Source: Bacteroidota bacterium (GTDB lineage Bacteria > Bacteroidota > Bacteroidia > Chitinophagales > Saprospiraceae). Taken from it: a stretch of 64,000 nucleotides of DNA. The notes below the pieces were generated by a model. It worked only from the letters and a program-made list of their open reading frames with translations. It made no database searches and had not been told where the DNA came from. How positions within the stretch are numbered: position 1 is the stretch's first letter; every line of letters starts with the position of its first letter. The stretch spans positions 1-64,000 of the forward strand of contig JAKQLF010000351.1 in assembly GCA_029567325.1 (NCBI GenBank), written 5' to 3'. The position numbers and the translations under genes were made by a program. This document shows, one piece after another, positions 49,525-61,055 of this stretch.

Positions 49525-51150
49525 TCACTCCCCAGGCAACTGCACCGATTGCCACTTTTCTCCCTTATTAAAAATAAAAATTCTACCGGGTACACTATCC
49601 TTGACTGTTACTTCAAAAGACAAATCACCGGTAACAACTTTGTACCGGTCAGATTCACTTCCATTCAATCCAGCGCCTTTTCGCCAAAACCAAGAGCCCC
49701 AACTAGCAATGTTTACCTTGATAGACTTGGGCGAAGTGATCTGTACGCCGACGCTGTCAATTGGTGAAGTGAGGTTGATTTCTGAGATATTGGTCATCTT
49801 TCCAGTGTAACTTCCTTTGCCAAGCCAGTCCAAACTTTCGTTGAATGTAACCCCGTCATTTCCATAATCGCGGAATAAATAGGCGCCATTCAAATTTTCT
49901 GGGACACACAAAAGTACCACTTCTTTATAGTCATAATAATCAAAGTCTTGGCACAAACGCTCGACAATAGTACCCGCATCTCGGGTAGTGCTGATCATCT
50001 TACTCAAGAAAAATGCATTCACCACCAAAAAGAAAATCCAAACATAAGCGTATGATTTTTTGAATGCAATGAAGAATAAGGTCGTGACGAATAAATACAT
50101 ATGCGGCGCTGCAAAGTAAGAATAGCGGTCATTTTCGTACCAGCCGATCCATACAAAAAACAAATTCAAAATGGGTAAAAGACCAAAAACAAAAGCGGCC
50201 ATGGAAGCAATCAATACTTGTTTTAATCTTTTGTATTTTGTAGTGCGGTATAACATTGCAACTAAAAGACCAATTGCAAAAAGAAAAGCCAAACTTTTCC
50301 ATAACTCAGACAAGATATTGTACCAACTTTCTTTGTAAGTAAACTTCCAAAAATGGCTTAGTAACAATATTTTGGAAACGTATTTGGCGAAGGTTGTTAT
50401 CAAAAGCGTGGGCGAGAATTTGAGATGTTGCTCAGCGCCATAATGACCAATCCAAGTACCGATGGACAACTTTGTAAGGATAAAATAAGCGACCAAGAGT
50501 ACCACATAAATCGGAACCAAACGATACCAATATCCTGCAAGTTGTTTCACATCTCCGCTTGCCCAAACTACAAGTGACAGATATATTAAAAAAATTGCAG
50601 GAGCAACCAAAGCCAGCTCTATCGTAAAAAGAGCAAGGATAAAAAACAAGAAGTGCAGATATAAAAATGGTTTTTTCTTTGTCAAATGATATCGGGTGAG
50701 GAAGTTGATGCCAAAGAAAACCAAAGCTGTACACAACAAGTAATGAAAGCAGGCATCCCAGGTGATGGGTTCAATGGCGTACGGTGAAAGTGCTGTGAAA
50801 ATACCGGTAAATAGGGCTATTAATCCAGCGTGTTCGGGGTTAACAGTCTCTACTATCAATCGGAAAGTGCGGTATACCAAATAACAAACAGAAGCGTGGG
50901 TCAAAATAAAAATCGTGCCCATCACTGCAACATTTTTGCCGATCAATTTGAATAAAATAAAGTTGATCAGGTGGAAAAACTGATGCATGCCCGGATATCC
51001 AAAACAATTCCACACATCGCTGAAACTACTATCGCGATACCGATTGAGCCAACCCAGATAATCTGTGACATAACCATAATCTTTTGTGCTTTGGAATGTC
51101 AGAAAACAGACCAGTAAAAAGACAGGGTAAATCAAAAGTCGTAGTTGCAT
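49525..51150 (-). CDS. Polytopic membrane protein, glycosyltransferase-like
   Basis: From ATG 51150 the protein is 541 residues with about ten membrane helices. The first extracytoplasmic loop contains DYGYVTDYLGWLNRYRDSSF with acidic residues, as in GT-C enzymes of the dolichyl/undecaprenyl-phosphate sugar type, and LSPYAIEPITWDACFHYLL follows. A C-terminal soluble part (about 425-541) is beta-rich and periplasmic. The family is not certain. The frame to 51318 has no additional supported sequence. Confidence 0.65.
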   Translation of the reverse strand: MQLRLLIYPVFLLVCFLTFQSTKDYGYVTDYLGWLNRYRDSSFSDVWNCFGYPGMHQFFHLINFILFKLIGKNVAVMGTIFILTHASVCYLVYRTFRLIVETVNPEHAGLIALFTGIFTALSPYAIEPITWDACFHYLLCTALVFFGINFLTRYHLTKKKPFLYLHFLFFILALFTIELALVAPAIFLIYLSLVVWASGDVKQLAGYWYRLVPIYVVLLVAYFILTKLSIGTWIGHYGAEQHLKFSPTLLITTFAKYVSKILLLSHFWKFTYKESWYNILSELWKSLAFLFAIGLLVAMLYRTTKYKRLKQVLIASMAAFVFGLLPILNLFFVWIGWYENDRYSYFAAPHMYLFVTTLFFIAFKKSYAYVWIFFLVVNAFFLSKMISTTRDAGTIVERLCQDFDYYDYKEVVLLCVPENLNGAYLFRDYGNDGVTFNESLDWLGKGSYTGKMTNISEINLTSPIDSVGVQITSPKSIKVNIASWGSWFWRKGAGLNGSESDRYKVVTGDLSFEVTVKDSVPGRIFIFNKGEKWQSVQLPGE

Positions 51151-51447
51151 AAGATAGAATCCAGACAAAGGCAAATATATAGTGAATCTTGGCCATCTGG
51201 TTATTTGCTTGAGAGAAATTCCATTTTGATTTTGTTCGGGAAGGTTCAATAGCAGACCATTGAAGCAACAATATTTGGAAAATTCAAAGAAACTGATCGA
51301 CCTACTAACCAATAACATTAAAATGCACGAACGAAGTAACCACGTAAAAGCTATTGTTCTTTTTTAATGTTTGACGAGAAACTAATAAAATACTAAAGCC
51401 CGTATATTTACCCCATTATCCAAAAGATAAAACAACATTATAAACAC

Positions 51448-51834
51448 ATGTTACAAATCCCTGGCCTCTTTATCATGGAAACACCCAATCGCGGAAAGGG
51501 TGTATTTGCTGGATTGCCCATTTCTGAAGGTGACAGCATAGAAGTATGCCACATCGTCAAGATTGCCAAAGCAGAAATTCCGATTATCCACAAAACAAGT
51601 CTTCATGATTATTATTTTTTGTGGGGTGAAGATTTGGAGGAAGCAGCCTTGGCACTTGGTTTTGGTTCATTGTACAACCATCAGTTATTTCCCAACGCCA
51701 ACTTTTTCCTCGATCTTGAGAATGAAACGATAGACATTGTGGCCATCCGAGACATTGAGCCGGGTGAAGAAATTACGATCAATTATCATGGGGAGCCTGG
51801 AGATGAGGGCGAGGTTTGGTTTGAGGTTGGGTGA
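51448..51834 (+). CDS. Small SET-domain protein
   Basis: The 128-residue protein is almost only a SET domain: ETPNRGKGVFAGLPISEGD (GxG-like motif), GFGSLYNHQLFPNANF (the NH cofactor motif of SET enzymes) and IRDIEPGEEITINYHGE (GEE..I.Y active site with Tyr). SET enzymes methylate lysines of proteins with AdoMet. Bacterial compact forms have few known targets. ATG start. Confidence 0.85.
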   Translation: MLQIPGLFIMETPNRGKGVFAGLPISEGDSIEVCHIVKIAKAEIPIIHKTSLHDYYFLWGEDLEEAALALGFGSLYNHQLFPNANFFLDLENETIDIVAIRDIEPGEEITINYHGEPGDEGEVWFEVG

Positions 51835-51913
51835 GATAATTACCAGATTGGAGCGTTTTTAAAAGATAGAAATAAAAAATTTATCGCATTCATTCAAAAA
51901 CTAGCGGCAAAAT

Positions 51914-52738
51914 ATGGCAAAAAATAAAACCATTCATGTAAAAGGCACTGAAATTACAATTTTTCTAAATGAACAGTCAGAATATATTTCACTTACTGAC
52001 ATTGCCAGATACAAGGATATTGAAAGAACTGAAACCATTATCCAAAATTGGATTAGGAACCGGAACACAATAGAGTTGCTTGGTTTCTGGGAGCAATTAT
52101 ATAATCCCGATTTTAAACACATCGAATTCGATGTGTTTAAAAAACAAGCGGGCTTAAACAGTTTTACGCTCAACCCTAAACAATGGATTGAGAAGACCAA
52201 TGCTATTGGCATTATTTCTAAGGCGGGCAGATATGGCGGAACTTTTGCACATAAGGATATTGCTTTTGAATTTGCTTCTTGGATTTCCATTGAATTCAAA
52301 TTGTATATCATCAAAGAATTTCAACGTCTCAAAGAAGATGAAAACAACAGACTACAGCTCAATTGGAACTTGCAGCGCACCCTTGCCAAAGTGAATTATC
52401 GCATTCATACAGATGCAATAAAGGATATGATCATCCCAAAATTGCTGGAACAAAAAGACATCAATTTAGTGTATGCCAACGAAGCCGACTTATTGAATGT
52501 GGCGATGTTTGGTAAAACTGCACAACAATGGAGAGATGAAAATCCTTATGCAAAAGGAAATATAAGAGACGAAGCTACTATTGAGCAATTAGTAGTGCTC
52601 TCCAACATGGAAAGTATCAATGCAGTGCTCATTCACAATGGATTAGGTCAGTCCGAAAGACTTTTGCAACTCAACAAAATGGCTATTTCACAAATGAAAT
52701 CATTGGTACAAAACTCGACGATTAAGAAATTAAAATAA
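51914..52738 (+). CDS. KilA-N domain protein
   Basis: The 274-residue protein opens with a KilA-N DNA-binding domain: ISLTDIARYKDIERTETIIQNWIRNRNTIELLGFWE, then FTLNPKQWIEKTNAIGIISKAGRYGGTFAHKDIAFEFASWIS. It ends in a helical region including VYANEADLLNVAMFGKTAQQWR. KilA-N proteins are common in phages and mobile islands, but no phage genes are nearby. It could be an isolated domesticated or anti-phage gene. ATG start. Confidence 0.85.
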   Translation: MAKNKTIHVKGTEITIFLNEQSEYISLTDIARYKDIERTETIIQNWIRNRNTIELLGFWEQLYNPDFKHIEFDVFKKQAGLNSFTLNPKQWIEKTNAIGIISKAGRYGGTFAHKDIAFEFASWISIEFKLYIIKEFQRLKEDENNRLQLNWNLQRTLAKVNYRIHTDAIKDMIIPKLLEQKDINLVYANEADLLNVAMFGKTAQQWRDENPYAKGNIRDEATIEQLVVLSNMESINAVLIHNGLGQSERLLQLNKMAISQMKSLVQNSTIKKLK

Positions 52739-52875
52739 AATTTTTAGACCGATCGTAAAACAAAAGTAAACGATCTCGTTGCATTTCCTTTATTACAAAT
52801 TTTCTGAAGCCAATCTTAAGAAACGGTTAAGCTGATATAAATCAATGCGACATCATCTTTGCAAAAATTACAAAT

Positions 52876-53343
52876 ATGATTTCTGCAACCCATTTACATG
52901 CAATGGTTGTCCATTTTCCAATTGCTTTATTAATTGTTGGCTTTTGTTTTGAGGTAGTGAGCTTGTTCTTTAAAAAGGAATTCCTCCAAAAAAATGCCTT
53001 CTTCCTACTTTTATTAGGCACGTTTGGAGCCATTGCAGCATATCTTGCGGGTAATACTGCCGGAGCAGGCTTAGAAGAAGGTTCTTTATACACTGCAATG
53101 GCATTGCATGAACAGTCAGCAACCATTTCTTTGTTGTTTGCAATGATTGCAACTTTGGTTTATTCAACCATCTTTTACTTTAAATTTCATAAGCGTTGGC
53201 TCAAAGTCATCGCTGTTTTGCTTTTTGCGGGAGTAATTGGCAGCATTAGCAGAACTGGATATTTAGGAGGTCAATTGGTATTTAAACATGGGGCAGGTGT
53301 AGAACTTGCATTACCTGATTTCTCAAATCCTGTTGAGAAATGA
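52876..53343 (+). CDS. DUF2231 membrane protein (paralogue 1)
   Basis: The 155-residue protein has four membrane helices: THLHAMVVHFPIALLIVGFCF with conserved His residues, LLLLGTFGAIAAYLAGNTAG, ALHEQSATISLLFAMIATL, and the terminal ISRTGYLGGQLVFKHGAG. DUF2231 proteins have conserved His that could bind heme or metal, but the function is unproven. It starts a block with a two-component system 33 bp downstream and shares the H..HFPI and RTGYLGGQ motifs with the gene at 56320. Confidence 0.85.
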   Translation: MISATHLHAMVVHFPIALLIVGFCFEVVSLFFKKEFLQKNAFFLLLLGTFGAIAAYLAGNTAGAGLEEGSLYTAMALHEQSATISLLFAMIATLVYSTIFYFKFHKRWLKVIAVLLFAGVIGSISRTGYLGGQLVFKHGAGVELALPDFSNPVEK

Positions 53344-53376
53344 GAAAAAGTATTAAAAGTTATTTATCTTAACATT

Positions 53377-54051
53377 ATGAGAATTTTTATAGCGGAAGAC
53401 GAAACAGCAATAGCCAGTTTTTTAAAAGAAGGACTGGAAGAAGAAGGTTTTGCTGTGGATGTTGCAATGAATGGCAGAGAAGCACTAGAATTGGCCATGA
53501 CCAATTTGAATGAGTATGACATCATCTTGCTGGATTGGATGATGCCTGGTATGAGTGGTATAGAAATATGTAGAGCTATTCGTAAAGAAAACAAAACTAT
53601 CCCGATTATTTTTTTAACTGCAAAAGATAGCGTGGATGATACCGTTTTTGGATTGGAAGTTGGTGCCAATGATTATTTAAAAAAGCCCTTTGCTTTTGAA
53701 GAATTAGTAGCTCGCATTAGAGTTTTGTTGCGTAATAAAACTGGTGAACTCAATATTTTTGAAACAGAAAATATAGTATTAAATACCGAAGCCCACCTGG
53801 TCACAAAAAATGGACAGCCCATAGAACTTACTCAGAAGGAATTTGCATTGTTAGAGTACTTACTTCGCAATAAGGGAAAGGTTTGCAGACGTTCGAGAAT
53901 CATAGAAAAAATATGGGATATTCATTTCGACAAAGACACTTCAGTGATTGATGTTTTCATCAATGCCTTGCGAAGAAAATTGGATACCAAAGACAACGAA
54001 TCATTCATTCAAACCATCCGTGGCGTAGGTTACCGGGTAAATGATCATTGA
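53377..54051 (+). CDS. OmpR-type response regulator
   Basis: The 224-residue regulator has a receiver (EDETAIA, phospho-Asp in DIILLDWMMPGMSG, TAKD, KPFAFEEL) and an OmpR/PhoB winged helix (about 128-224: LTQKEFALLEYLLRNKGKVCRR, TSVIDVFINALRRKLD, TIRGVGYRV). It is the partner of the kinase whose ATG overlaps its TGA by 1 nt. It likely controls the surrounding DUF2231 and rubrerythrin genes. Confidence 0.93.
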   Translation: MRIFIAEDETAIASFLKEGLEEEGFAVDVAMNGREALELAMTNLNEYDIILLDWMMPGMSGIEICRAIRKENKTIPIIFLTAKDSVDDTVFGLEVGANDYLKKPFAFEELVARIRVLLRNKTGELNIFETENIVLNTEAHLVTKNGQPIELTQKEFALLEYLLRNKGKVCRRSRIIEKIWDIHFDKDTSVIDVFINALRRKLDTKDNESFIQTIRGVGYRVNDH

Positions 54052-55418
54052 TGAAACTAAGTTTTAAAAAACGTATTGCACTTTTTAATACTTTGGCGGT
54101 TGCTTTAACTACAGCTATTGTTTTCATTATTATTTATGCAGTCGTGCATATAAGTTCATACCGCCATCTTGATAGTGATATTTTACTGGAAAAAGAAGAA
54201 ATATTAAGTACTCTTTACTGGAGAGGTGATAGTATCATAACCAACAAAATGCTTGAGTGGGAAGTGGTTGAGCATGAAAAAGTAGAAGTCAATCCTACTT
54301 TTATTCAAATTGTAGACAACAGAGACAGAATGATATTCAAATCTGCAAATCTCCAATCAAACCTTTTTTTATTTAATCCCAAAATTAAAAAAGAATATTT
54401 TTACAATACCGAAATAGATAATCAAAGACTTCGGCTTGGTCAATTTCCTGTAATAAATGACCAAGGAATAATAATTGGTCAAATGACTATAGGTGTATCT
54501 CAACAGGAATCTTACTATGTGATAAATAATCTACTTATTACACTCTGTATCGCATTCCCAATTTTAATACTAACCCTTTATTTGGTAATTTACTTTGCCG
54601 CCTCCAAAGCCATCGCACCTGTTCAGCAGTTAATCACTACCGCTGCTGGAATTAATGATTCTAATATAGATACACGATTGCCATTACCCGAAAATGAAGA
54701 TGAATTATACCAGTTAACAAGTACCATTAATGAATTGCTAAGCAGAATAGGCAGTAGTATGCAGCAGCAAAAACAATTCACGGCCGATGCTTCACACGAA
54801 ATAAGGACACCGCTTGCCGCGATCCGAGGCACACTTGAGGTTTTACTCCGTAAAAAAAGAGAGCCAGAACATTATGAGGAAAAAATAAAAGATGTAATTG
54901 CACAAACTGATAGACTCAATCAATTACTTGACCAATTGTTACAGCTTGCCCGACTGGAATCAAGCTCAATTAAAAAAGAAACAATTAATTTGAGTAAATT
55001 AATAAAAGATTCGGAATTAAAATTTGACAAACAATTAATGGAGAAAGCAATGCGGGTCAAGTCTTCAATAGCTGAAACTGTTACTGTTCATGCCGATGCT
55101 TTTTTCTTTTCTGTAATCATTGACAATCTCTTGAGTAATGCCATAAAATATGGAAAGCCTAATGGAGATATTAATTTTAGTTGGGAATTTGATACTAAAA
55201 CCTTCTCTATCACAAATGATGGCCCTGAAATTACGCCACAACAAATACAATTTTTATTTAATCGGTTTTATCGCACTGATGATTCAAGAAGTTCGATAGT
55301 TCCTGGAAGTGGTTTAGGGCTTTCCATTGTCAAAAAACTGGTAGACTTACAAGACATTGTAATCGATGTGAGTAACAAATCTAACAGAACTACATTTTCA
55401 CTTCAATTTCCATCATAA
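54051..55418 (+). CDS. HAMP-domain sensor histidine kinase
   Basis: From ATG 54051 (first base shared with the previous stop) the protein is 455 residues: TM1 (about 12-35), a periplasmic sensing domain (about 36-165), TM2, HAMP (to about 240), HisKA with the phospho-acceptor in ADASHEIRTPLAAIRG, and HATPase (DNLLSNAIKYG, GSGLGLSIVKKL). The overall type is CusS/BaeS-like, commonly answering metal or envelope stress. No Cys or His-rich metal cluster is evident in the sensor. Confidence 0.92.
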   Translation: MKLSFKKRIALFNTLAVALTTAIVFIIIYAVVHISSYRHLDSDILLEKEEILSTLYWRGDSIITNKMLEWEVVEHEKVEVNPTFIQIVDNRDRMIFKSANLQSNLFLFNPKIKKEYFYNTEIDNQRLRLGQFPVINDQGIIIGQMTIGVSQQESYYVINNLLITLCIAFPILILTLYLVIYFAASKAIAPVQQLITTAAGINDSNIDTRLPLPENEDELYQLTSTINELLSRIGSSMQQQKQFTADASHEIRTPLAAIRGTLEVLLRKKREPEHYEEKIKDVIAQTDRLNQLLDQLLQLARLESSSIKKETINLSKLIKDSELKFDKQLMEKAMRVKSSIAETVTVHADAFFFSVIIDNLLSNAIKYGKPNGDINFSWEFDTKTFSITNDGPEITPQQIQFLFNRFYRTDDSRSSIVPGSGLGLSIVKKLVDLQDIVIDVSNKSNRTTFSLQFPS

Positions 55419-55517
55419 TCTTTAGCGTATCTTAAGAATGCCCAAAGGCTAATCAAAGAGTAGTAATAGCACTTTTGTTTTATAAATTATTTAAAACAAA
55501 TAAAACAAAAATTAAAA

Positions 55518-56270
55518 ATGAAAAAGCTATTAATGATCCCGATTATGGTATTTACTCTTGGGGGTTTTTGGTTGACTTCTTGTCAAAATGCCAATACAGA
55601 TGCAGCAATGAAAGCCCCTGTGCAAAGCAATGAAGGAATCGCCGCTCAAAACACATCTCAAGAAAGTAATGGTGTGGAAGGAATGGAAAACGAAGAGGTG
55701 GAAATTGAAAAAACTTCCATTACAGAACCAGCTATTTCGGCTGCAAATAAAAGTGCAACCTCGAAAACTACAGATAATATGCAGAATGCCTTCAAAGGTG
55801 AAACAAATGCAAGTGCAAAGTATGCAGCATATTCCAAAAAAGCTGAACGGGAAGGATACCACCAAATTGCATTGCTTTTTAAAGCTGCTTCTACTTCAGA
55901 AAATATTCATGCCAATAATCATAAAGCAGTTTTGCAGGAATCAGGTCTTACCGTTCCAGTGATTAAACCAGCATTTACTGTTAACACCACAGAAGTCAAT
56001 CTACAGGATGCGATTGGAGGTGAATCGTATGAAATAACAACCATGTATCCGGACTTTATAACCGTTGCTAATACTGCTGGAAATCAATTGGCCATGATCA
56101 GTTTAAATTATGCTTATAAGACAGAGAAAAAGCATAAAGTATTCTATGAGGCAGCATTAATGGCTTTGCAAAACAACGATGTGAAATCCAAACCAACGGT
56201 ATTTTTGTATGTCCTACTTGTGGTAATACTTATGAAACAAAAGGGTCGGCACGTTGCGGAATTTCCATGA
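55518..56270 (+). CDS. Rubrerythrin-like ferritin-fold lipoprotein, frameshifted C-terminus
   Basis: A lipoprotein signal (GGFWLTSCQ) precedes an Ala/Glu/Thr-rich linker (about 25-85) and a ferritin-like domain (about 90-225: GETNASAKYAAYSKKAEREG, ENIHANNHKAVL with E and H ligands, YKTEKKHKVFYEAAL). The reading frame then gives a hydrophobic tail that ends at 56270. In the +1 frame the sequence gives VCPTCGNTYETKGSARCGIS and so on to TAA at 56317, a rubredoxin-like end. The shift is at the five-T run near 56200-56206, so one missing T would explain it. The exported location is unusual for rubrerythrin. Confidence 0.78.
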   Translation: MKKLLMIPIMVFTLGGFWLTSCQNANTDAAMKAPVQSNEGIAAQNTSQESNGVEGMENEEVEIEKTSITEPAISAANKSATSKTTDNMQNAFKGETNASAKYAAYSKKAEREGYHQIALLFKAASTSENIHANNHKAVLQESGLTVPVIKPAFTVNTTEVNLQDAIGGESYEITTMYPDFITVANTAGNQLAMISLNYAYKTEKKHKVFYEAALMALQNNDVKSKPTVFLYVLLVVILMKQKGRHVAEFP

Positions 56271-56319
56271 CAAGCAACGAGAAATTTATAAAAATTACTT
56301 CACAACAAAATATATAATC

Positions 56320-56811
56320 ATGAGCCAAGTACATTTGCATTTGCTGATCACACACCTTCCAATTTTCGGAAGCCTTATAGGAGCCCTCGTGTTAGGGTAT
56401 GGCCTTTGGGTAAAGAGTAATCAAACCAAAAATGCTGCATTTTTTATCTATATTATTTCTGCGATTGGAGCGGGAATCGCATACTTGACAGGCGAAGGAG
56501 CAGAAGAAGCGGTAGAAAATATTCAAGGTGTATCAGAAAATATGATAGAACTCCACGAAGAGGCTGCTATGCTTGCTTTAATAAGTTTGATTGCCTTAGG
56601 AGTCATGTCATTGGTTGCTTTATTTGTCAGCCGCTATAAAACTTCGTTGATAAAGACTGTTTCCATTGCCGTGCTTTTATTGTCACTTATAAGTTTTGGA
56701 CTCGTTGCAAGAACTGGCTATCTTGGGGGCCAAATAAGACATACAGAAATTGGCAACGTTGCTGTGCAGAGCAACGCAGGAGTGGAAAGTGGAGAAATGG
56801 ATGATGACTAG
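56320..56811 (+). CDS. DUF2231 membrane protein (paralogue 2)
   Basis: From ATG 56320 (3 bp after the restored rubrerythrin stop) the protein is 163 residues with four helices: VHLHLLITHLPIFGSLIGALVLG, IYIISAIGAGIAYLTGEGAEEAVENI, ELHEEAAMLALISLIALGVM, and LVARTGYLGGQIRHTEI at the end. It is a clear paralogue of the gene at 52876, sharing the HL..T/VH.PI and RTGYLGGQ motifs. The longer frame to 56254 overlaps the rubrerythrin reading and is unlikely. Confidence 0.83.
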   Translation: MSQVHLHLLITHLPIFGSLIGALVLGYGLWVKSNQTKNAAFFIYIISAIGAGIAYLTGEGAEEAVENIQGVSENMIELHEEAAMLALISLIALGVMSLVALFVSRYKTSLIKTVSIAVLLLSLISFGLVARTGYLGGQIRHTEIGNVAVQSNAGVESGEMDDD

Positions 56812-56848
56812 TAATTTAGCTACTTTTTAAGACCGGTACTGATGCCAT

Positions 56849-56884
56849 AAAATAAATCCTTCATTTGATTGAAGGATTTATTTT
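56849..56884. terminator. Strong terminator hairpin, 15-bp perfect stem
   Basis: AAAATAAATCCTTCA, TTTGAT, TGAAGGATTTATTTT: perfect 15-bp arms followed by ATTTTTATG on the plus strand and preceded by an A-rich run for the opposite direction. It ends the DUF2231/two-component/rubrerythrin block and separates it from the immunity genes. Confidence 0.85.
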
Positions 56885-56908
56885 ATTTTTATGATATAAT
56901 GATTGAAA

Positions 56909-56958
56909 AAAGCTAGTGCTGCAAACTAATCTGAAAGCAGCATATAGATACTAGCTTT
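56909..56958. repeat. Nested stem-loop after the terminator
   Basis: AAAGCTAGT with ACTAGCTTT (9 bp, 56909-56917 and 56950-56958) encloses GCTGC with GCAGC (56918-56922 and 56937-56941) around a 14-nt loop. The fold could be a second terminator or a small RNA. No gene is seen in 56959-57130. Confidence 0.5.
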
Positions 56959-57130
56959 CTTTAATATTGCGTTTTTTGGCCAATGTTCTCATGTAAACAA
57001 CCTAGATCTTTATGAAGATTAATTTTTATTAATGGATTAATTGGAAATTTATATTGCCTCAGAACATTCACTCCGAGAGATTTTGGTACAATTATAGTGG
57101 AAGAAAAGAAGCTTAGAATGGTATTGTATA

Positions 57131-57544
57131 ATGACAAAACTTGAAAACAATTGGAGACAAAAGTCTCTAGAGAATTTGGAAAAGGTGTATTGGGGACATC
57201 CGCAATATGACAGTCATTTAGTAATTAGATCCCATGAAATTAGAAAGTTACCGTTATCTGAATTGAATAATGACGACATAGCAATGATGATCAGGCAGCA
57301 ATTTAGCCTTGATTATCTTGTTCCTTTAGCTATTGAAAAATTAGAAGTAGACCCTTTGGCTTTTGGAGAATGCGGTACAGAAGGTGCAATCATGGAGGCC
57401 ATTCTAAAGATTGATGCTGACTTTTGGATGATCAATGAAGGGTACTGGACGATTGTAAAAAGAATATTGGACAATTATGCTGAATGCTGGAGTTTTAAAA
57501 ATCAAAATAAGTTTGAAATTGCGAATCCTAATGCAACAAAGTAA
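57131..57544 (+). CDS. Contact-dependent growth inhibition immunity protein (CdiI-like)
   Basis: The 137-residue protein resembles the CdiI_3-type immunity family: SLENLEKVYWGHPQYDSHLVI, RKLPLSELNNDDIAMMIRQQFSLDYLVPLAIEKLE, and ILKIDADFWMINEGYW. Such proteins neutralise a cognate CdiA or polymorphic toxin tip. No toxin gene is within view on either side, so it is an orphan or protects against a neighbour's toxin. ATG start. Confidence 0.75.
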   Translation: MTKLENNWRQKSLENLEKVYWGHPQYDSHLVIRSHEIRKLPLSELNNDDIAMMIRQQFSLDYLVPLAIEKLEVDPLAFGECGTEGAIMEAILKIDADFWMINEGYWTIVKRILDNYAECWSFKNQNKFEIANPNATK

Positions 57545-57573
57545 GTTTAAAACTTTATTTAACTTCACAAATC

Positions 57574-58188
57574 ATGACAGAAAAGCAAATTGAGCGCATA
57601 AAATTAAAAATTGCCAGATATAAAAAAGCGCTTGCTGAAGACAAAAAATTCTGGGGCGGATATTACCATGATGGTCGCGGTATTCGATACGAAATTCCTG
57701 CAGAATATATAAAACTGAAAGACTATAAATCAGGTTTAAGATATTTAAGATGGTTTGATAGAACTTTTCCTGATGACGCTGGTTGGCCTACTTTTTTATT
57801 TGAATTAACTTTGATCTTATTCAAATGTGGCAAATTCAAGGAAGCTGAGGAAAAAGTCAACAGAACTTTTTTTTCAAACATTTATCTTTTTGATAAATTT
57901 CTGGAAAAAGAACCTTTGCATTTTGACAAAAGTGAAGGCGCAAACAGGGATTTTGAAATGATCGAAAAGTATTTTCCTTATTCAAAAAGGGAACCTGAAT
58001 TGGAAGATTTTGCTATTTGGGTTGAAAAACTTTTGAACGAAAAAGCATTTTTAGACAAGGCAAATGAATTTTTAGAAATAGAATTCAAATTAAAAACAGA
58101 ACCTTTTGGTGAGGAAAGGACTCAATTATTAAATAGACGTGCTATAATTGTATATGGTTACCTACCCACTTATGATGAAGAAGAATAG
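57574..58188 (+). CDS. Uncharacterised TPR-like protein beside immunity gene
   Basis: The 204-residue, highly charged, helical protein (YKSGLRYLRWFDRTFPDDAGWPTFLFELTLILFKCGKFKEAEEKV gives two TPR-like helix pairs) lies 29 bp after the CdiI-like gene on the same strand. Similar proteins are found in immunity gene clusters, so a second immunity role is possible. No catalytic motif. ATG start. Confidence 0.6.
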   Translation: MTEKQIERIKLKIARYKKALAEDKKFWGGYYHDGRGIRYEIPAEYIKLKDYKSGLRYLRWFDRTFPDDAGWPTFLFELTLILFKCGKFKEAEEKVNRTFFSNIYLFDKFLEKEPLHFDKSEGANRDFEMIEKYFPYSKREPELEDFAIWVEKLLNEKAFLDKANEFLEIEFKLKTEPFGEERTQLLNRRAIIVYGYLPTYDEEE

Positions 58189-58236
58189 ACGTGATATGGT
58201 ACTCAAGGAGCAAATAAGTTTCTAAAAACCGAAAAC

Positions 58237-58371
58237 CTGAAAACTGACCACTGACCACTGAAAACTGACAGCTGACCACTGAAAGCTGAATACAATCTTT
58301 TATCTTTAACAATTTTATTTCTGGAAAATTTTTGCTCGTGGCCCGAGACTCGATGCTCGAGGCAAAAGACC
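58237..58371. repeat. CTGA-word and GCTCGAG-word repeats
   Basis: 58237-58290 is CTGAAAACTGACCACTGACC-type words. 58334-58371 is GCTCGTGGCCCGAGACTCGA followed by TGCTCGAGGCAAAAGACC. Both families match, in the same orientation, the spacer at 23.7-23.9 kb. The glycosidase gene begins 23 bp after. Confidence 0.8.
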
Positions 58372-58394
58372 TTCACCCAACATAAATTGATATC

Positions 58395-61055
58395 ATGATT
58401 AAAATACTATCCTTAATGATCGCCTCAATGGTCTTAATTTCTTGTCAAAAACAACCAAAGGAAAGTGATGTACTTTATAAATCTGATGCCTTTACATTAT
58501 ATAAAAACAAAGTTGTACAAGGAGACAATTTAGCAGAAGTTGTATCACCTACACACCTCAAATCAAATTATAGAAGTCCTGCAAGTACAACTTTTTCTAG
58601 CCTGATAAAATTCAAGTTTTCCATCAATGAAAAGGACAATGAACTCGCTCCTGGAGTAGATCATTGGGTGATTATTGACAAAAATCAAACGGAATCGGAT
58701 TTAATCAAATTTGGTGAAATACCGCAACCAACGCCTGAGAATCCCGGGACTTATTTGTCTACTAATCATAAATATACTTTCAAAGTCGATATGTCTCCCG
58801 TTTTAGAACAGTTTGAAAAGCAAGGATATTACCAAGCCTACGATGGTTCTAAAGTGGCTAAGGCTGATTTTAAAGGCTTTTATGTCGCGGGAGGTTCTGA
58901 ACCCTTGTCGTGGGACTTTGTAAATTTGGGAAATAAAGGTTTGAAATTAGAACCTACAAAAGAGGCTAATATTTATAGTTTGACCGTCACCTTCAATCCT
59001 TACAATGAAGCAGATGTGCAAGATATAGAATGGCAACTGTCTGAAGATATTTCTAGCCGTCCAAAATATAGCTCTGATCAACCAATAGTCGACGCCCTAT
59101 TTAATTTATCATTGGAGGAAGCAATCCAAAATATTGAAGCAGATAGCACGCTGAGAACCGGTGCAAAATGGGGCGGAGTTTGGACACGAGATGTGAGTTA
59201 TTCCATTTTATTGACTTTTGCCTACCACGAACCCGAAGTCGCAAAAATTAGCTTGCGAAAAAAAGTGAAACGGGGTAGAATCATTCAAGACACTGGTTCT
59301 GGTGGTGCTTGGCCTGTTTCTTCAGATAGGACTACTTGGTGTTTGGCTGCCTGGGAAATTTATAAAGCCACCGGCGATCAAGCTTGGTTAGACGAAGTTT
59401 ATCCCATCATTAAGAATAGTTTGGAAGACGATTACAAGACTATTTATGATGCTAACATTGGTATGTATTCTGGAGAATCTTCGTTTTTGGATTGGCGAGA
59501 ACAAACCTATCCCAAATGGATGGACAATCGGGATATTTATGGATCTCACAATTTGGGAACAAATGTGGTGCATTATCAGGCGCACCAGATTTTAGCTGAA
59601 ATGGCAAAACTCAAAGGCGAAAATGGAAAAATCTACAACGATAGGGCTGAAACTATAAAAAAGTCCATCAACGAATATTTCTGGATGAAAGACAAAGGGT
59701 ATTATGGGCAATATTTATTTGGCCGCTCAGATTTGATCTTGTCACCACGATATGAGGCATTGGGCGAAGCACTGGCGATTTTGTTTGACGTTGCAGACGA
59801 TGAAAAAGCGGCTTCCATTATTTCAAAATCTCCCTTAACTACATTTGGTGTTACTTGTATTTATCCACAAATTCCAGGAATTCCGCCCTATCATAACAAC
59901 GGCATTTGGCCATTCGTGCAATCTTATTGGAACTGGGCAGCTGCAAAAACGGGCAATGAGGAAGTTTTAAATCATGGTTTAGCCAGCGTTTACCGAGCTT
60001 CTGCTTTGTTTTTGACAAATTATGAAAACATGGTTGCTCAAACCGGCGACTTTTTGGGAACAGAAATCAATTCACATCGCATGTTGTGGAGCATGGCAGG
60101 CAATATGGCCATGGTTTACAGAATCTTTATGGGTTTGGAATTTCAAAATGATGGTTTGTATTTTAATCCCGTATGTCCAAAAGTTTATGGAGGCACCAAA
60201 AATTTATCCAATTACAAATATCGAAATGCCACTTTAAACATAACTGTCAAAGGACATGGCACTAAAATCAAAACGGTGACCATCAATGGCAAGCCATCAA
60301 AAGCTGCTTTTATACCAAAAGATGCCACAGGAAACCAAGAAATCATCATCGAATTGGCATATAATGAGTTTCCGAATGCTGGAATGAATATGATGGATAA
60401 TCACTTTTCACCACCAACCGTTTTGGCAAAAAAAGATGGTGCTGTTTTAAACTGGCAACCCATTGAAGATGTAAAGGAGTATCGTATTTATAAAAATGGA
60501 AAATTGCTTCAAACAACAAATGAAACTCAATTAAATATACCAGAAGAAAATTACGCATCCTACATGGTATCTGCCGTTGATGCTTTAGGTTTTGAAGGAT
60601 TTGCATGTGAACCAATGGTATTTGCAAAAAATGAAATCAAAATTGAAATAGAAAATATTGCTAGCCCATCCAAATTGCCTTATACTAATTTTTCGGGTAA
60701 AGGTTTTGTGGAAATTTCACTTTCAAAAAACAAAGAGATTACCATAAAAGTTGAAGTTGAAAAAGATGGCATGTATATTTTGGATTTCAAATATTCCAAT
60801 GGCAATGGACCTTGGAATACCGATAATAAATGTGCGATTCGCAGTTTAACGGTCAATGATCAGTATGAAGGTGTGATGGTCTTTCCACAACGAGGACAAA
60901 ATGAATGGTCAGACTGGGGGTATTCCAATGAACGGAAAGTGCATTTAAAATCAGGAACAAATATCGTAAAACTTCATTTTGAAGATTGGAATAATAATAT
61001 GAATGTTGATGTAAATACGGCCATGTTGGATTATATGAGGCTAATAAAAATTTGA
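58395..61055 (+). CDS. Six-hairpin glycosidase lipoprotein with C-terminal carbohydrate-binding module
   Basis: The 886-residue lipoprotein (signal MIKILSLMIASMVLISC) has an N-terminal beta domain (about 35-225), an (alpha/alpha)6 catalytic core (about 230-590: GGVWTRDVSYSILL, GAWPVSSDRTTWCLAAWEIY, FLDWREQTYPKWMD, NNGIWPFVQSYWNWAA), a fibronectin-like segment (about 665-745) and a CBM6/35-like end (about 755-886: NGPWNTDNKCAIRSLTVN, LHFEDWNNNMN). The core resembles GH63/GH37-type inverting glucosidases. The substrate is not resolved. It sits on the cell surface and degrades an oligo- or polysaccharide. Confidence 0.82.
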   Translation: MIKILSLMIASMVLISCQKQPKESDVLYKSDAFTLYKNKVVQGDNLAEVVSPTHLKSNYRSPASTTFSSLIKFKFSINEKDNELAPGVDHWVIIDKNQTESDLIKFGEIPQPTPENPGTYLSTNHKYTFKVDMSPVLEQFEKQGYYQAYDGSKVAKADFKGFYVAGGSEPLSWDFVNLGNKGLKLEPTKEANIYSLTVTFNPYNEADVQDIEWQLSEDISSRPKYSSDQPIVDALFNLSLEEAIQNIEADSTLRTGAKWGGVWTRDVSYSILLTFAYHEPEVAKISLRKKVKRGRIIQDTGSGGAWPVSSDRTTWCLAAWEIYKATGDQAWLDEVYPIIKNSLEDDYKTIYDANIGMYSGESSFLDWREQTYPKWMDNRDIYGSHNLGTNVVHYQAHQILAEMAKLKGENGKIYNDRAETIKKSINEYFWMKDKGYYGQYLFGRSDLILSPRYEALGEALAILFDVADDEKAASIISKSPLTTFGVTCIYPQIPGIPPYHNNGIWPFVQSYWNWAAAKTGNEEVLNHGLASVYRASALFLTNYENMVAQTGDFLGTEINSHRMLWSMAGNMAMVYRIFMGLEFQNDGLYFNPVCPKVYGGTKNLSNYKYRNATLNITVKGHGTKIKTVTINGKPSKAAFIPKDATGNQEIIIELAYNEFPNAGMNMMDNHFSPPTVLAKKDGAVLNWQPIEDVKEYRIYKNGKLLQTTNETQLNIPEENYASYMVSAVDALGFEGFACEPMVFAKNEIKIEIENIASPSKLPYTNFSGKGFVEISLSKNKEITIKVEVEKDGMYILDFKYSNGNGPWNTDNKCAIRSLTVNDQYEGVMVFPQRGQNEWSDWGYSNERKVHLKSGTNIVKLHFEDWNNNMNVDVNTAMLDYMRLIKI

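Follow-up and report, generated by a model that had tools for sequence, protein, structure and literature searches.

An OmpR-type two-component pair, an exported rubrerythrin-type protein and two DUF2231 proteins encoded in one block in Bacteroidota

Rubrerythrins are known as cytosolic peroxidases that are fed with electrons from NADH through rubredoxin or flavoproteins. Here, we analyse a block of five genes in which a rubrerythrin-type protein carrying an export signal is encoded together with an OmpR-type two-component pair and two DUF2231 membrane proteins, found in a stretch of 64,000 nucleotides (positions 1 to 64,000, forward strand, of contig JAKQLF010000351.1, assembly GCA_029567325.1, a Bacteroidota bacterium of the Saprospiraceae), referred to below as the window. 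Two described arrangements are among the closest. In Escherichia coli, the CusSR and HprSR pairs drive MsrPQ, an exported methionine sulfoxide reductase with a membrane partner needed for its activity (according to passages of PMC9302797), and MbfA, which combines a ferritin-like domain with a VIT1 iron exporter, is described as acting in ferroxidation and iron export (according to passages of PMC7762939).

Anatomy and conservation of the block

The five genes are all on the + strand at 52876–56811 and are followed by a terminator-like hairpin. The family matches bear out the original prediction, made from the sequence, that a DUF2231 gene, an OmpR-type two-component pair, an exported rubrerythrin and a second DUF2231 gene stand together here. 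The features are:

52876..53343, + strand: DUF2231a, a four-helix membrane protein of 155 amino acids (aa); PF09990, 62.9 bits versus a cut-off of 26.4
53377..54051, + strand: OmpR-type response regulator, 224 aa; Response_reg and Trans_reg_C
54051..55418, + strand: HAMP sensor histidine kinase, 455 aa; HisKA, HATPase_c and an acidic/His sensor domain
55518..56317, + strand: rubrerythrin-type lipoprotein predicted to be exported, with signal MKKLLMIPIMVFTLGGFWLTSC, di-iron domain at about 86–213 and a rubredoxin-like tail; frame broken
56320..56811, + strand: DUF2231b, paralogue of DUF2231a, 163 aa; PF09990, 24.1 bits, slightly below the cut-off of 26.4
56847..56886, + strand: intrinsic-terminator-like hairpin with a T-rich tail, 17 pairs counted
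52804..52831, + strand: candidate response-regulator box 5' of DUF2231a, CTGAAG-N5-CTTAAG-N5-GTTAAG, three half-sites with an 11-bp period
55420..55447, + strand: candidate response-regulator box 5' of the rubrerythrin, CTTTAG-N5-CTTAAG-N5-CCAAAG
52858–52861: TTTG of a Bacteroidota -7-like element, DUF2231a promoter, read from the sequence
55474–55477, + strand: TTTG, rubrerythrin promoter

The gene order is more than chance and is no oddity of one strain, because it recurs across the Bacteroidota. Genome contigs were scanned for the rubrerythrin only, by peptide patterns of the window's protein that over-represent close relatives, and 45 loci were obtained (among them two near-duplicate pairs, L007/L008 and L036/L044), all from Bacteroidota by title bar one titled only 'bacterium'. 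A DUF2231 gene, the regulator and the kinase lie directly upstream of the rubrerythrin in 36 of the 42 loci with enough sequence, the exceptions being L022, L023, L033, L038, L042 and L049, so that the order is not confined to this strain, an outcome that had been set down beforehand as refuting the original reading. It is also kept in all four of a further set of modules (L078–L081). Downstream of the rubrerythrin, 29 of 43 loci have a DUF2231 gene no more than 300 bp away. The window's own genome includes a second rubrerythrin–DUF2231b pair (L052:7723–8883, equal to C363:129722–130882) with no adjoining two-component genes; this second pair adjoins a P-type ATPase gene, identified by eye from the sequence.

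The spacing given earlier for the first four genes holds (33 bp between DUF2231a and the regulator, a 1-nt overlap of regulator and kinase, and about 100 bp, measured as 99 bp, between kinase and rubrerythrin). The hairpin that had been taken to close the block is present, though its stem, originally put at 15 bp, was counted as 17 pairs. A hairpin scan of 50000–60000 returned four sites versus a shuffle mean of 5.9, which is no excess, and the one at 56847–56886 has the longest stem of the four. The HAMP domain of the kinase scores slightly below its cut-off. To either side of the block (51448–52738 and 57131–57544) are genes for a SET-domain protein, a KilA-N protein and a CdiI_3-type immunity protein, which may hint at an accessory region.

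The rubrerythrin, its export signal and its tail

The window protein contains a rubrerythrin domain (PF02915, 78.9 bits versus a cut-off of 22.8). At each di-iron position, 44 to 47 of 48 rows retain the ligand, and gaps account for 11 of the 13 exceptions. The relatives of known structure that were listed are only the rubrerythrins in PDB and their close kin (nigerythrin, sulerythrin and symerythrin), with E values down to 4e-35, and the PDB rubrerythrins align across the whole of the domain and the tail. Canonical rubrerythrin is known as a cytoplasmic protein. The family described here, judged by its signals, would not be: an export signal was recognised in 48 of 52 rows, the window included, as a lipobox in 40 and a hydrophobic signal without a lipobox in eight (by our own lipobox pattern), and the other four rows are fragments or have a start called too early.

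The second departure is in the rubredoxin-like tail, where the fourth Cys is replaced by Ser in 41 of 44 tails (L020, L023 and L033 retain Cys), as well as in the tail frame of the window and in the second genome copy on contig C363. In the previously unused modules L078–L081, all four have Ser at this position versus none of 20 ordinary rubrerythrins, these controls having been picked by hand from about one hundred match rows of the same draw of 296 genomes of the phylum that supplied the four modules. Site-directed mutants of rubredoxin exist, and the conserved Cys-to-Ser change is a natural counterpart of these; a literature search for Ser-substituted rubredoxins found nothing useful. The score against the NCBIfam equivalog RuberyRbr, obtained with the broken window frame, was 84.3 bits versus a cut-off of 200. 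Because of this shortfall and the replaced Cys, we file the window protein, on its sequence, as a relative with the di-iron domain rather than as a canonical rubrerythrin.

In the window, the gene is interrupted. The open frame at 55518–56270 ends in about 25 codons that are out of frame, and the tail typical of the exported family is encoded in a different frame at 56207–56317 (VCPTCGNTYETKGSARCGISMTSNEKFIKITSQQNI-stop). Hence, there is a one-nucleotide frame break at about 56200–56207 that removes the rubredoxin-like tail; the original reading mentions neither this break nor the Cys-to-Ser change nor the regulator boxes described below. The relatives that reach this site keep the tail in frame, so intact copies exist, and the break in the window is either a real loss or an error of sequencing or assembly, the latter because the genome is a draft in 402 contigs. 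In another locus, L046, the rubrerythrin is split into two overlapping frames at a different site. The start of DUF2231b lies 2 nt past the stop of the out-of-frame tail; a TTG start at 56254, given for this gene in the list of open reading frames, was not believed because it overlaps the tail frame.

DUF2231 proteins, kinase and regulator boxes

Though DUF2231b scores below the Pfam cut-off, it shares 32 % identity with DUF2231a in a 162-column alignment (E 8e-17) and on this ground is counted as a DUF2231 relative, which upholds the paralogy originally proposed for the two proteins. The shared His residues that had been singled out are indeed conserved. H8, H13, P15, G59, H78, G131 and G132 are invariant in 61 sequences from the window and the relatives' loci, and when ten plasmid-borne proteins from Bacteroidota, Pseudomonadota and Bacillota were aligned with five from modules, H8, H13 and P15 were present in 15 of 15 and H78 in 14 of 15. 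Lys and Arg are commoner on the side opposite the conserved His in all 61 rows and, by the positive-inside rule, the His are predicted to lie at the periplasmic face. A structure model of DUF2231a has four helices (mean predicted local distance difference test score, pLDDT, 85.7) and places H13 and H78 about nine residues into helices 1 and 3, about equally deep, an arrangement that a common ligand site would allow. The model was superposed on CcmF (6zmq; Foldseek E 0.32, VIA Z 12.5, root-mean-square deviation 3.3, 125 aligned) and on cytochrome b561 (4o6y; VIA Z 12.0, root-mean-square deviation 3.7, 140 aligned); de novo bundles score equally high. An identity based on fold was dropped, as de novo bundles, CcmF, cytochrome c oxidase subunit III and b561 all reach a similar Z.

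The two-component pair is nearest to heavy-metal families, at some distance. The best NCBIfam match of the response regulator is cztR_silR_copR (231.5 bits versus a cut-off of 279.2), with HprR at 199.2 versus 353, and that of the kinase is cztS_silS_copS (207.9 bits versus 292.55). As all scores fall below the cut-offs, the pair is not assigned to the CusR/CzcR/HprR-type families. The sensor domain of the kinase has invariant His, Asp and Glu and no conserved Cys, and the best-kept Met is present in 28 of 38 rows. With these invariant residues and no conserved Cys, a hard metal would be a better fit for the domain than copper(I). All 38 sensor rows share an ExxE stretch. It is not claimed as a specific iron-sensing motif because no paralogue is close enough through the sensor domain to act as a control (11 places in the own genome, four of them aligned).

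A direct repeat, YTTWAG-N5-YTTWAG, with an 11-bp period and often a third half-site, lies 5' of both DUF2231a and the rubrerythrin. It was found in 30 of 34 stretches upstream of DUF2231a and 22 of 35 upstream of the rubrerythrin, versus shuffle means of 0.06 and 0.05 (100 shuffles). The stretches came from 38 rows with a DUF2231a gene (L006, L021, L044 and L045 left out) and from 46 with a rubrerythrin (L012, L022, L030, L033, L038, L039, L042, L044, L045, L048 and L049 left out); the half-site is nearly palindromic, and the reverse strand matches in 11 of the 34 and 4 of the 35. The window's DUF2231a box does not conform to the search pattern and is counted among the four misses in the 34, and in eight of the 13 rubrerythrin misses (L016, L027, L031, L034, L035, L036, L040 and L050) a box lies directly 3' of the kinase gene, the rubrerythrin being over 200 bp away. 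In 11 of 14 loci inspected (L016, L027, L030, L031, L034–L036, L039, L040, L044 and L050), a short frame, 71 to 87 aa long, that looks like a lipoprotein and has a charged E/N/K tail lies between the second box and the rubrerythrin. The TTTG of the promoter begins after 37 further bases in 24 of the 30 and 19 of the 22 box-bearing stretches, and in the window's two promoters it is equidistant from the middle half-site.

The box was discovered and counted on the same loci, and the independent tests are L078–L081 and the whole genomes only. All four of these modules, which were not used in the discovery, have at least one box, at six of eight promoters by the pattern applied, and in five whole genomes a 20-base pattern has four perfect matches, all at module promoters. 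In the own genome, a 28-base pattern has one exact match, at the rubrerythrin promoter. As the same pattern backwards matches seven times by chance, this count says little by itself and it is the location that is telling. Among 60 relatives, the strict 28-base pattern matches in four genomes including the own one, fewer than the backward control; for most of the 60, no module is known. With our own pattern, no box was found 5' of the second rubrerythrin copy or of the genome's own VIT1. A box is also present 5' of VIT1 in L021 and, in L031 (1960–2832), 5' of a gene whose protein reads by eye as a PAP2-type phosphatase; the latter suggests that the regulon can reach beyond the module.

Proposed function and comparison with known systems

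Two sets of neighbours recur in the relatives. A VIT1-type gene is in the same gene run in 18 of 45 loci, and the two members that were scanned both match PF01988, one of them with an N-terminal rubrerythrin-like stretch slightly below the Pfam cut-off. A His-rich membrane protein of 190 aa and a multiheme cytochrome c are in the gene run of six of 45 (L015, L017, L022, L025, L029 and L040). H33, H78, H92, H96, H168 and H182 of the membrane protein are invariant in the six sequences (L017:7251–8764 and equivalents); the two scanned match no Pfam family above cut-off, its profile found no match among PDB sequences, and its structure model has a mean pLDDT of 67.6. The one cytochrome scanned matches the class III and c7 families, and together the two proteins look like a module for electron transfer from membrane to periplasm. 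These neighbours strengthen the envelope redox or metal role that was first suggested for the block; its peroxide part is something we infer.

We hold with moderate confidence that the block is a two-component-controlled operon for defence of the envelope against iron and/or peroxide stress, in which DUF2231 is the membrane partner of the rubrerythrin. The sequence itself shows the anatomy, the conservation, the export signals, the di-iron ligands, the Ser-bearing tail, the boxes and the charge-based topology; the signal, the substrate, the binding of the regulator and the role of DUF2231 as an electron or metal partner would be as follows. The kinase would respond to a signal in the periplasm, with free iron or an oxidant as the probable candidates, and the regulator would bind the 11-bp direct repeats at the two promoters, raising its own operon, DUF2231a–regulator–kinase, and an effector unit of rubrerythrin and DUF2231b, to which an iron exporter or the cytochrome pair would be added in other species. 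The di-iron site of the exported rubrerythrin, mostly a lipoprotein, would turn over peroxide or oxidise ferrous iron. A conserved rubrerythrin family at work outside the cytosol has to draw its electrons from elsewhere, and the co-encoded DUF2231 proteins are candidates: because no cytosolic NADH reductase is at hand, we propose that these proteins, with their conserved His facing the periplasm, would feed the rubrerythrin with electrons (our first choice) or with metal, such as iron (our second). If this is true, the partner role would be the first function for a domain family found in several phyla. A more specific version, which would amount to a novel route of electron transfer outside the cytoplasm, is tentative and, we think, rather unlikely as a whole. 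In it, the DUF2231 proteins would be single-heme or quinone-binding redox proteins wiring the quinone pool to an exported rubrerythrin with an Fe(Cys)3(Ser) or other metal site, giving a periplasmic peroxidase of the Bacteroidota, and the same DUF2231 module would serve copper enzymes elsewhere.

Several observations weigh against an envelope defence operon of this kind. The rubrerythrin subfamily is present in five of 296 genomes drawn evenly from the phylum, the own one included (at least 290 bits, the next match being at 163 bits), and in four of 199 genomes of the own family (E 1e-60), and being so rare the module cannot be a core defence; its patchiness indicates that it is either old and often lost, or mobile. 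In 14 of 43 loci, no DUF2231 gene lies within the 300 bp that follow the rubrerythrin, and DUF2231b is thus not obligatory. Pairwise distances of the five proteins correlate (r 0.73–0.92), as joint inheritance predicts, but common descent alone would produce such a correlation too. Few loci have the cytochrome pair, and next to the window's copy there is neither this pair nor VIT1. Away from the modules, one-mismatch matches to the 20-base pattern number 15 in the five genomes versus 13 for the backward control, and a wider regulon is therefore unsupported. The DUF2231 profile found no match among solved structures in PDB, a fold search with DUF2231a (Foldseek, 260 rows, E up to 10) returned none at E 0.001 or better, and the Z values of 12–14 against heme bundles fall inside the tool's warning range for helical bundles. 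Finally, in seven of 11 plasmid records opened (17 found, E up to 10), DUF2231 is among copper genes, which include a multicopper oxidase, a copper-binding four-helix protein, a copper ATPase and Cop genes.

Among the other plasmid records, one has ctaD, cytochrome B and CopD, one has a ferritin-like gene 1.4 kb upstream, one has nothing telling, and a Staphylococcus aureus plasmid has the order regulator–kinase–DUF2231–CDF transporter. Several of the plasmid proteins carry Met-rich or His-rich tails, and the DUF2231 proteins of the modules are without Met-rich tails. In three Hymenobacter plasmids (L055, L073 and L076), a DUF2231 gene encoding a long Met-rich (MPGMxM) tail lies directly 5' of a multicopper oxidase gene, as an uncharacterised component of the copper cassette.

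Of the rival explanations, the one that survives best, which we regard as possible if unlikely, is that DUF2231 is a metal-handling membrane protein (a permease, chaperone or metal-ion reductase) that passes ferrous iron to a rubrerythrin acting as a ferroxidase or store and not as a peroxidase. The VIT1-type gene in 18 of the runs, with the rubrerythrin-like N-terminus below cut-off in one of the two scanned members recalling MbfA, the predicted periplasmic His trio of DUF2231 and the Met- or His-rich tails of several plasmid proteins would all fit such a role, but the rubredoxin-like tail, which is kept, and the neighbouring cytochromes of some loci speak for electron transfer, and no homology to transport proteins was found in the Pfam scan or the PDB profile search. 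A copper or heavy-metal response, with a Cus/Czc-like pair, DUF2231 as a copper protein and the rubrerythrin as protection from metal-driven oxidation, has to be taken seriously because the DUF2231 genes of plasmids are often part of copper cassettes, and both regulators have heavy-metal families as their best matches; the S. aureus gene order is in line with it. We consider it improbable for the module, as both regulators are below the family cut-offs, the sensor domain lacks a conserved Cys and keeps its best Met in 28 of 38 rows, the gene that recurs as a neighbour is VIT1 and not a copper gene, and the Met-rich tails are missing. Least probable is that DUF2231a is a co-sensor of the kinase and the rubrerythrin the sole effector, for though DUF2231a–regulator–kinase between two boxes looks like a separate transcription unit and DUF2231b can be absent, the second pair in the own genome has no adjoining two-component genes, and DUF2231 thus accompanies the rubrerythrin without a kinase.

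Searches that covered few subscription papers found no literature joining DUF2231 with rubrerythrin and, by phrase, none on a periplasmic, secreted, exported, extracytoplasmic, membrane-bound or lipoprotein rubrerythrin; among the titles listed by broader searches, none points to such a system. Within the literature searched, the parts of the envelope defence operon proposed here are of known kinds, and no description seems to exist of their combination, of the tail with Ser or of the box. The rubrerythrin shares the di-iron ligands and the C-terminal CxxCG...C tail with rubrerythrin and nigerythrin (PF02915; PDB 1nnq, 1yuz and 1b71), and differs in its predicted export, in the Ser at the fourth Cys (41 of 44), in an insert in mid-domain relative to 1nnq and in a long linker after the signal. 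Copper cassettes on plasmids of Hymenobacter, Sphingobium and others encode DUF2231 proteins with the same H8, H13 and H78, but their neighbours are copper genes, no annotated rubrerythrin is present in the stretches opened, and several have the Met- or His-rich tails.

In MsrPQ, the membrane partner is a heme protein through which electrons from quinone reach the exported enzyme. The block resembles the HprSR/CusSR–MsrPQ systems in having a Cus-type two-component pair, an exported redox enzyme and a membrane partner, whereas MsrP is another enzyme and the CusR/HprR box is CATTACAAAATTGTAATG in place of the 11-bp direct repeat seen here (passages of PMC9302797). The VIT1-type gene in 18 of 45 runs, and the rubrerythrin-like N-terminus of one of the two members scanned (below the Pfam cut-off), recall MbfA, although VIT1 lies outside the window's block, the ferritin-like domain of MbfA lies in the cytoplasm and MbfA is reported to be controlled by Irr (passages of PMC7762939). 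The parallel with MsrPQ is a likeness of design and not membership, with heme or electron flow via DUF2231 hypothetical and, as we read these comparisons, the common thread of the module is extracytoplasmic metal and redox stress.

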